From Acidimicrobiaceae bacterium (GTDB lineage: Bacteria; Actinomycetota; Acidimicrobiia; Acidimicrobiales; RAAP-2), in assembly GCA_003142095.1 (NCBI GenBank), contig PLON01000017.1, forward strand, positions 4,651-68,650: a stretch of DNA of 64,000 bases, in the 5' to 3' direction. Below the pieces are notes generated by a model that searched no databases, was not told the DNA's origin, and was given only the letters and a program-made list of their open reading frames with translations. Numbering within the stretch: position 1 is the stretch's first letter; each line of letters starts with the position of its first letter. The translations under genes were made by a program, and so were the position numbers. This document shows positions 17,063 through 21,030 of the stretch, in pieces.

Positions 17063-18691
17063 TTAGCGCCTGAGAACTGGCGCGCCCACGGGGGTTGCTT
17101 CGCTCAATGCCTCACGCGCGTGGTAACTCGATCGGGTTAACGGCGACGACTGCACGTGGCGAAGCCCGAGACGCCTTCCGCGCTCGGCAAGATCCTCAAA
17201 CTCCGACGGTTCCCAGAATCGTGCGACGGGCAGGTGGCGTTCAGTGGGTCGCAGATACTGACCAATGGTGACGATCTGAACGCCGACAGCGGCTAAATCA
17301 CTCATCGTTTCTTCAACCTCGTCGACGGTTTCGCCGAGACCGACCATGAGTCCCGACTTCGTTGTGAGCCCCGCGTGGGCGCTTCGAGCGAGCACGGTGA
17401 GAGAACGCAGGTAACCCGCACTCGGACGAACCGCTCGTTGCAAGCGAGCGACCGTTTCGATGTTGTGATTCAACACGTCGGGCCGTTCGTCGAAAAGAAT
17501 CTGCAACGAGTCTGAGTCACCGCGCAGATCACTGGTCAATACTTCGACGTCCGTGCTCGGTGAGCGCTCTCGAATGGCCCGCACGCTCGCCGCGATGGCG
17601 GCCGCTCCCCCGTCGTCGAGGTCGTCGCGCGCGACACAGGTGATGACAGCGTGAGCCAGTTTGAGTCGAACCACGGCCTCGGCAACTCGCTCCGGCTCCG
17701 TTGGATCGAGGGCGAAGGGTTTACGAGTGTCAACGAGACAGAAACCACACGCGCGCGTGCACCGTTCTCCGTTCACCATGAACGTCGCCGTTCCCGCGGA
17801 CCAGCACTCGAAGATATTGGGGCATCCCGCCTCTTCGCAGACCGTCACGAGACGCAGGTCTTCGGTCAACTTGCGCAGAGATTGATACTCACTTCCCATA
17901 CGGGCTTCGATACGTAGCCACTCGGGCTTTCGCGTCGCGATCGAGAGACCGGCGTCCGGGTCGACGCCGGCCTTACGGAGACGGCGAATCAGTGGCCGCT
18001 CGTCCGACGTGGTGGCCGCGCTGCGATCAACTTTCGCGACGCGAGACACTTCGTTGAGTTCGCGATCGAGTTCTTCGCCCAGCAGATTCTCCACCTCGAG
18101 CGCGGTGACGTAAAGCCCGAGTGAGGTGAGTGACGCCACGGGCTTATCGGGAATGCCACAAGGCACGATGGCCCGAAAACCTTCCAGGTCAATGTCGACG
18201 TTGAGCGCCACTCCGTGCAGCGTGCGACGCACACCGTTCGCGTTACGCTCGGTACGCACGCCCACCGCGGCAATCTTCGCCGGATGCGTCGCCAGATTCG
18301 CCCACACGCCGGGATATCCCTCGAGCCGACCAACTTCACCGAGTTGTCCTTCGGGGTCGACACGTCGGACCGTTGAAATCACGGCGTCTTCGAGATGGCG
18401 AACGTGCGACTTGCCGGCCGCGGGGTCGTCGGCGACGGTGACGATCGCCCACGCGACCACCTGTCCGGGAGCGTGGTACGTCACGTCTCCCCCGCGATCG
18501 GCGTCAATGACAACGGCGTTCAACTCGGCTGGTGGCACCAGGAAGTGTTCGTCGAGCGTTCGTACGCCACGCGTATAGGTCGGCGGATGCTCGAAGAGCA
18601 AGACGTAGTCGTCACTCGCCTGCAATAACGCTCGTTGGAGATCATTCGCTTCAGCGAAGGAAACTCGTCCGAGGTGGCGACGTCGCAACAT
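17063..18691 (-). CDS. Fused octanoyltransferase (LipB) - lipoyl synthase (LipA)
   Basis: Single 542 aa ORF. LipB: RGGDVTYHAPGQ, PCGIPDKPVASLTSLG. LipA: CEEAGCPNIFEC (Cx4Cx5C), CTRACGFC (Cx3Cx2C), C-terminal RSSYHA. Confidence 0.93.
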   Translation of the reverse strand: MLRRRHLGRVSFAEANDLQRALLQASDDYVLLFEHPPTYTRGVRTLDEHFLVPPAELNAVVIDADRGGDVTYHAPGQVVAWAIVTVADDPAAGKSHVRHLEDAVISTVRRVDPEGQLGEVGRLEGYPGVWANLATHPAKIAAVGVRTERNANGVRRTLHGVALNVDIDLEGFRAIVPCGIPDKPVASLTSLGLYVTALEVENLLGEELDRELNEVSRVAKVDRSAATTSDERPLIRRLRKAGVDPDAGLSIATRKPEWLRIEARMGSEYQSLRKLTEDLRLVTVCEEAGCPNIFECWSAGTATFMVNGERCTRACGFCLVDTRKPFALDPTEPERVAEAVVRLKLAHAVITCVARDDLDDGGAAAIAASVRAIRERSPSTDVEVLTSDLRGDSDSLQILFDERPDVLNHNIETVARLQRAVRPSAGYLRSLTVLARSAHAGLTTKSGLMVGLGETVDEVEETMSDLAAVGVQIVTIGQYLRPTERHLPVARFWEPSEFEDLAERGRRLGLRHVQSSPLTRSSYHAREALSEATPVGAPVLRR

Positions 18692-19900
18692 CTATCGCTC
18701 GCTCTCGAGATCCATCCCCGCGAGCAGTTCGCCCACCCGTTCCAAGTATTTCGCGGCGCCCGTCGGTTCGCAGACCCGATGATCGAAGGAGAGTCCGAGC
18801 ACGAGACGACGACCAACCTCGAGACTTGTTCCGTCACTAGCCACGACCGGCACGACGCGCACGGCGCCCATGGAGAGAATCGCCACTTCGGGTTGAATAA
18901 TGATCGGCTTTGCCCACAGTGTGTGCGCGGTCGGTGCACCGGCAATGGTGAAGGTGCCACCCATGAGATCGTCGGCCGTCAGTTGGCGCGATCCGAGCCG
19001 ATCGTCGAGTTCGTTTACTCGTCGCGCGAGTGCCCGCAGGGTCAAGCCCGCCGCGGCGTAAACGACCGGCACCAGCATGCCGTCATCGGCGATCGCACGG
19101 ATGACGCCCAGATTGACCGTGCGGTGAAGAACCAGTTCGTCCCCCGAATACGTAGCGTTCAAGAATTCAAACTCCGCGAGTGCGCGCACGGCCGCGAGAC
19201 TGACCACCATCTCGTCGCTGATCGACTCGCCGTCGCGCGTGACGCGACCGAGTGCCTCCAGTTTGGCGAAGATGGCTCCGTCTACTTCAACGGCGACGAA
19301 GCCGTGCGGCGTGCCCTGGCTAGAGACCGACATGTGCTGGCCCATGCGACGTTGTCCGTTACTGAGGGGAAGGACAACCTCTTCGGTGGGGCCCTGGGCG
19401 ACGGCTCGCTCCGCATCGCGACGAGTAATCGACCCACCGGGACCAGTACCACGCAAACTCGACGCTTCGACACCGCCATCGTTCAAGATTCGCCGCACCA
19501 CGGGCGAGACCACCACGCCGGACGAGGCGTCAGCGGTTGCGGCAGTTGCCGGCGTGGCCAGGGAGGCAGGAGTAGGGGGCGCGGTGGTAGTTGACGCAGT
19601 AACGGGCTCAGTCGCCGCCTCCGGGGTGTTTGGCGGTGCGTTCTGCGCCGAGGCACTCGCCCCAACCGACTCATCGATGACGGCGACGCGTGACCCCGTT
19701 TCCACGGTGTCGCCCTCAGCCGCAATGATCTCTATTAAGACACCGGCGGCGGGTGAGGGCATCTCTGAGTCAACTTTGTCCGTCGACACTTCGAAGAGTG
19801 GCTCATCGCGGGCGACGACGTCACCCACCTTCTTGAACCATTGCGTGATGATTCCTTCGGTGACGGACTCACCCAACGAGGGAAGGGTGACGTCAGTCAT
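18692..19900 (-). CDS. 2-oxo acid dehydrogenase E2 component (dihydrolipoamide acyltransferase)
   Basis: Lipoyl domain VTLPSLGESVTEGIITQWFKKVGD...VSTDKVDSEMPSPAAG; Ala/Pro/Thr linker; PSBD VSPVVRRILNDGG; catalytic domain with altered HR motif. Confidence 0.9.
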   Translation of the reverse strand: MTDVTLPSLGESVTEGIITQWFKKVGDVVARDEPLFEVSTDKVDSEMPSPAAGVLIEIIAAEGDTVETGSRVAVIDESVGASASAQNAPPNTPEAATEPVTASTTTAPPTPASLATPATAATADASSGVVVSPVVRRILNDGGVEASSLRGTGPGGSITRRDAERAVAQGPTEEVVLPLSNGQRRMGQHMSVSSQGTPHGFVAVEVDGAIFAKLEALGRVTRDGESISDEMVVSLAAVRALAEFEFLNATYSGDELVLHRTVNLGVIRAIADDGMLVPVVYAAAGLTLRALARRVNELDDRLGSRQLTADDLMGGTFTIAGAPTAHTLWAKPIIIQPEVAILSMGAVRVVPVVASDGTSLEVGRRLVLGLSFDHRVCEPTGAAKYLERVGELLAGMDLESER

Positions 19901-21030
19901 GACACGCGCACCAGGACTGGCTGGCGCACTTTGGTGCCGGGGACGGTGAAGTTGACGGCCCACACGGTTCCGTGAGCCGCCGCCACACCTTCAAGAGATT
20001 GCATGAACGGTGAGGACACGATCGTAGAACGACCAGAAACGATTCCGACACGAACAAGACATTCCTGTGAGTTTGAATGACCTCTGCTGGCGGCGAAATA
20101 CACGCTACCGTTCTCCACGGCATCCAGACCGCTCGGCGAGAGTAAGACATGAACATCGTGTGGGAGGATGATCCGGGTGTCTCGGCCAGTCGTGAGATTG
20201 ATTCGTTCGAGACCCTTCTCGTCTTCAACCCATAGATTGGTGCCGTCGTACGCAATCGGCATGCCAGCCTTGACGCCAGGAAATCTGACCTTCGTCACGA
20301 CTCCGGTGTCCATGGAGACGCGAACCAAGAAATTCAGGCCCGTACCGACGGTGGACCCCGTACTGTTGGTGGACGCACTCAGCCATACATAACGCGCGTC
20401 GGCAACCATGTCAGGTCCCAACGGCACACCACTAAGCACGGGTGACGTGATTGTTGAGACTGCCAAGGTCGTAGTGTTCACCCGAATGATTCCCTGTTCG
20501 CCCGAAATCCAGACGTAGCCACCAGCCAAAACAGTCGGGGCGCCGTTGGTCACTATTTTCGCTCGAATGGACGCCGGAATCTTGACACCTGTGACGGCCA
20601 AGGTTGCCGTGTTGATACGAAGGAGTGACCAATTTAGACCATTGCTTATCGCGCCGTTCATCACCCAGACGTAGCGTCGAGACGTCATGATACTCAATGG
20701 CACGGAGATGAGGGGGCTGGTGATGGACTTAGTGGCTCCGGTGGCGACGTCAATGCGTACAATCTTCTCACCGTGATTGCTACCGGTTATGCGGTAAGGG
20801 AGTACACCTGCGTCCGAAATCCAGACGTACTGTCCTTGTGCCGCAAGACCCCTCGCCGCGACGACACCAGTGTGCGAATAGGCCGTGACAACTGGAGCTC
20901 CTTGTGCGTACGCCAACGAGCCCAGCACACCCGCCACAGCGAGCGCTGCGCCGACGCTCACTCGCGCAACGTGGCTTCCTATCTCCGACCTGGATCTCTG
21001 GGGATATTTGCGAACCGTGACGTCAGCCAA
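19897..21030 (-). CDS. Secreted/anchored beta-propeller-like repeat protein
   Basis: N-terminal hydrophobic signal (VSVGAALAVAGVLGSLAYAQG); repeats of the YVWIS/YVWVM/YVWLS...RINTxT type; overlaps both neighbours. Confidence 0.75.
   Translation of the reverse strand: MADVTVRKYPQRSRSEIGSHVARVSVGAALAVAGVLGSLAYAQGAPVVTAYSHTGVVAARGLAAQGQYVWISDAGVLPYRITGSNHGEKIVRIDVATGATKSITSPLISVPLSIMTSRRYVWVMNGAISNGLNWSLLRINTATLAVTGVKIPASIRAKIVTNGAPTVLAGGYVWISGEQGIIRVNTTTLAVSTITSPVLSGVPLGPDMVADARYVWLSASTNSTGSTVGTGLNFLVRVSMDTGVVTKVRFPGVKAGMPIAYDGTNLWVEDEKGLERINLTTGRDTRIILPHDVHVLLSPSGLDAVENGSVYFAASRGHSNSQECLVRVGIVSGRSTIVSSPFMQSLEGVAAAHGTVWAVNFTVPGTKVRQPVLVRVS

Follow-up and report, generated by a model that had tools for sequence, protein, structure and literature searches.

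LipB and LipA are textbook enzymes that act in successive steps of lipoic acid assembly and are normally separate. The octanoyl intermediate stays covalently bound to the lipoyl domain of another protein (E2), and the transfer of the octanoylated domain from LipB to LipA has been studied mostly with separate enzymes. With standalone LipB (TIGR00214; structures 1W66 and 2QHS) the protein considered here shares, in its N-terminal half, the whole domain, the Cys/Lys dyad, the RGG loop and the fold, and with standalone LipA (TIGR00510; 5EXI-5EXK) its C-terminal half shares both cysteine motifs, RSSY and the fold; the difference is that here each is one half of a fusion. In Mycobacterium, Nocardia, Jiangella and other Actinomycetota homologous genes occur in the same order, lipB before lipA, but as two genes with a stop codon between them, where the present locus has one frame.

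Is there precedent for an acyl-attachment enzyme joined to lipoyl synthase? The NCBIfam model NF053790 describes a bifunctional lipoate--protein ligase/lipoyl synthase (LplA-LipA) with, as here, the acyl-attachment enzyme N-terminal and the synthase C-terminal. However, its N-terminal half is an LplA ligase whereas ours is a LipB transferase, and our protein falls outside that family, scoring 353 bits where 800 are required and matching through residues 251-527, the LipA part only. Such proteins may already carry a multifunctional label in the automatically annotated entries of protein databases. A GTDB-wide survey of lipoate assembly mentions ligase-domain fusions, and the portions of it reached by keyword search hold no mention of a LipB-LipA fusion (PMC10332631); nor was a prior description, which would have gone against the original prediction, found in the open literature searched.

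One frame, two complete enzymes

The window, i.e. the whole stretch of 64,000 nucleotides that was analysed, contains the single 542-codon open reading frame in which the original prediction saw a natural fusion of LipB to LipA; it lies on the minus strand, which the prediction left unstated.

17063..18691, minus strand: LipB-LipA fusion gene, 542 aa, ATG at 18691, stop at 17065-17063
18077..18691, minus strand: LipB octanoyltransferase domain, residues 1-205 (Pfam, NCBIfam, structure alignment)
18277-18275 and 18160-18158, minus strand: codons of catalytic Lys139 and catalytic Cys178, respectively (alignment with M. tuberculosis LipB 1W66)
17936..18076, minus strand: linker, residues 206-252
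17066..17935, minus strand: LipA lipoyl synthase domain, residues 253-542 (Pfam, NCBIfam, structure alignment)

The analysis confirms that a whole LipB octanoyltransferase and, after it, a whole LipA lipoyl synthase share one chain. Pfam places LplA-B_cat at residues 16-204 (2e-23), LIAS_N at 253-290 (a partial model match) and Radical_SAM at 309-466 (1.5e-17), and the protein exceeds the cut-offs of both equivalog models, with 115.3 bits against 83.55 for lipB (TIGR00214) and 341 bits against 310.25 for lipA (TIGR00510), while scoring under the cut-offs of narrower LipB models (NF010925 and others). With both equivalogs above cut-off and the same frame in congeners, the fusion of these consecutive enzymes is well supported, and the motifs on which it had been proposed, RGGDVTYHAPGQ, PCGIPDKPVASL, both cysteine motifs and RSSYHA, are all present.

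The M. tuberculosis LipB dyad is Lys142/Cys176 (PMC9307952). Alignment with 1W66 brings R66-G67-G68 (the RGG loop), Lys139 and Cys178 of the fusion protein into register, and Lys139 and Cys178 are invariant in an alignment of 89 diverse fused proteins (89/89). In the C-terminal half, which matches M. tuberculosis LipA 5EXI in a comparison with solved structures, the auxiliary-cluster cysteines are C285-x4-C290-x5-C296, those of the radical-SAM cluster C311-x3-C315-x2-C318, and RSSY occupies residues 520-523; CX4CX5C, CX3CX2C and the C-terminal Arg520-Ser521-Ser522 are again invariant in 89/89. The activities predicted from these features are, for the LipB half, octanoyl transfer from acyl carrier protein (ACP) to the lipoyl domain and, for the LipA half, sulfur insertion with two [4Fe-4S] clusters. 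At residue 74 (18470-18472) the window's protein, like many congeners, has alanine in the active-site-loop motif of LipB, giving HAPGQ in place of HGPGQ.

Could one of the halves be inactive and kept just for docking or structure? The alanine in the HGPGQ motif, present in 9 of the 89 aligned fused proteins, is what could be cited for this, but the invariance of the catalytic residues of both halves and the strong purifying selection on each speak against it, and we regard it as very improbable. Searching the window's genome turned up a single LplA-B_cat domain and a single LipA, with no further copy of LipB, LplA or LipA. Since each half is the sole copy found of its type, both should work, and the fusion protein is probably the genome's only route to lipoylation.

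Distribution and origin

How widespread is the single frame? Both domains lie in one frame in all of the approximately 175 readable Acidimicrobiia loci that were read as DNA, a set in which the same genome may appear twice via two collections; among them are 35 loci chosen to include genomes whose search match came split in two, and all 35 have one frame. Every complete locus in the window's genus has the same open frame, and no split lipB/lipA was seen in any readable locus of the class. Separate genes in close relatives, which the original prediction gave as a potential refutation, were not seen. As to the taxonomic mapping of the two-domain architecture that accompanied the prediction, the sampling covered Actinomycetota, and the architecture proves class-wide in Acidimicrobiia. 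The fusion is old and stable there, no peculiarity of the window's genome, and it is a candidate lineage marker. Acidimicrobiia loci lacking a complete fused frame end at contig ends or in runs of N, and incomplete assembly is the likely explanation for the few genomes of the class, e.g., G122, that gave no match whatsoever. Internal stops in some matches of the class (1 TGA; families f44 and f39) had suggested split genes, and the DNA has one frame; the interruption that made locus L031 appear frameshifted is N.

That the frame itself might be an artefact of assembly or binning is a thought prompted by the window's genome being a draft in 77 contigs. It is extremely improbable, as the same frame is present in many independent assemblies, single-contig genomes among them; a frameshift or assembly error at the junction, about which the original prediction had been cautious, was not seen, congeners at 67-89% identity having the same open frame.

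Elsewhere in Actinomycetota lipB and lipA, wherever both were seen together, are separate genes in tandem, the start of lipA following shortly after the end of lipB; the two lie near each other or overlap. Of 144 distinct complete fused proteins, 143 belong to Acidimicrobiia, judged by their origin or their place in the tree. The tree was built from both domains, a quick build whose support is SH-aLRT and not bootstrap; in it a branch with a value of 96 sets 70 Acidimicrobiia fusions apart, and no further change is needed. That branch points to a single ancient fusion of an ancestral gene pair, and the simplest reading of the sequences is one old event in the ancestor of the class, in which adjacent lipB and lipA genes lost the stop that had kept them apart. 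Locus L080, with separate genes, was considered as an exception within the class; in the tree it groups with the outgroup. Four genomes outside the class (G505, G496, G502, G668) were at one point taken to have fusions as their open-frame values ran through stops, and their DNA has separate genes.

One LipB-LipA fusion outside Acidimicrobiia is real: locus L145 of genome G526, from family f107 of another order. Its congener and sister in the tree, G511, has two genes in different frames, and so fusion has arisen at least twice; on this gene comparison the L145 event is independent, replaying that in Acidimicrobiia. Among the genomes read from the 61 sampled in its order there was no other confirmed fusion.

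Linker and predicted structure

Between close relatives pN/pS is 0.22-0.37 in the linker compared with 0.07-0.16 in both domains, and synonymous change in the linker is as frequent as elsewhere in the gene. The low pN/pS together with normal synonymous change argues that the junction is translated as protein. Is the product nevertheless an ordinary pair of proteins in the cell, generated by internal initiation or cleavage? Potential starts exist, namely GTG at codons 200 and 215 and ATG at codon 265, but no obvious Shine-Dalgarno-like stretch precedes any of the three, the ATG falls within the LipA domain, and substitutions in the linker follow the pattern of coding sequence; two products are, in our estimation, a most unlikely outcome. 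Scans for promoters and terminators gave results at chance level.

For the whole chain AlphaFold2, given the alignment of fused proteins as input, returned a single compact, confidently predicted unit with pLDDT 94.9 and pTM 0.94 in which the linker is ordered and has a short helix at 233-240. For a distant relative (family f40), in which the linker region is longer, pTM was also 0.94. Such values in two distant members with different linkers suggest, from the predicted pTM, that the LipB and LipA halves have a fixed relative placement. In Foldseek comparisons (TM normalised by target) the LipA half scored 0.93 to 5exk and the LipB half 0.82-0.84 to 1w66/2qhs; both folds are thus intact, each half found its own family, and no solved chain among the top matches listed spans both.

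Linker length among the fused proteins spans 29 to 108 residues, which exceeds what would be expected if its geometry were critical and so counts against fixed placement. It is also what makes one consider that the halves, each active, are independent on a passive tether, the fusion having been fixed by history or for the sake of equal expression and bringing no gain in catalysis. Loss of a stop would have sufficed for such a tether, as lipB and lipA of the outgroup were already close or overlapping, and the independent fusion in one species (G526) whose congener keeps two genes is in keeping with it. Yet all readable loci of the class remain fused with zero splits, the modelled linker is ordered in a chain whose pTM is matched in a distant member, and the linker has a conserved element, the recurrent RRLxxAGV (237-243) immediately ahead of the LipA start RKPEW. 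A passive tether deserves to be taken seriously as a minority reading.

Proposed hand-over of the lipoyl domain

The reading that we favour, with reasonable though not full confidence, is that the gene product is a single bifunctional enzyme of lipoyl assembly, a fusion of single origin whose halves are fixed and between which a lipoyl domain is handed over. The LipB half would take octanoate off acyl carrier protein via Cys178/Lys139 and put it on the lysine of a lipoyl domain, for instance the one in the E2 whose gene lies just upstream, after which the LipA half would add two sulfurs by radical-SAM chemistry. With the halves fixed, the lipoyl domain could reach the two sites in turn and would be spared the search for another enzyme, and the fusion would keep the LipB and LipA activities at a 1:1 ratio. 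As the intermediate remains attached to a lipoyl domain that belongs to a different protein, channelling of the tunnel type is unnecessary, and we infer that handing this domain over from one site to the other is a likelier advantage than literal channelling. The predicted fixed arrangement is compatible with hand-over, without proving it.

A more ambitious version, in which LipBA across Acidimicrobiia is an integrated two-site machine of fixed geometry that passes the lipoyl domain on without release, is put forward tentatively, and we would sooner bet against it than for it. If it is true, LipBA is a ready-made single-chain system for coupling of both steps. The natural single chain is in any case a defined object for testing hand-over and the relative position of both sites, and it offers a one-gene lipoylation module.

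Neighbouring genes

18692..19900, minus strand: E2 acyltransferase, one lipoyl domain, 402 aa
21023..22465, minus strand: E3 dihydrolipoyl dehydrogenase (TIGR01350), first gene of the E3-E2-LipBA cluster

The TAG stop of E2 (18694-18692) directly abuts the ATG of the fusion, and an abutting or overlapping arrangement of the two recurs in the window's genus. Of 64 Acidimicrobiia loci whose DNA extends far enough, 58 have E2 as the gene immediately preceding the fusion, in most cases itself preceded by E3, and the adjoining E2 is the likely substrate of the fusion protein. Five loci of the class (L050, L063, L065, L072, L073) have no recognisable E2 directly upstream.

Between E3 and E2 of the window is a 377 aa frame (19897-21030, minus strand) with a start like that of a secretion signal, a sub-threshold match to DUF6923 as its best domain evidence, and a stop that overlaps the E2 start (ATGA). 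Its GC content is 0.55-0.57 compared with approximately 0.62 in the surroundings. In near relatives E3 abuts E2 with nothing between, and the frame is missing from 60 congeners save for one weak 23% match; it is apparently an orphan gene inserted in the lipoamide operon.
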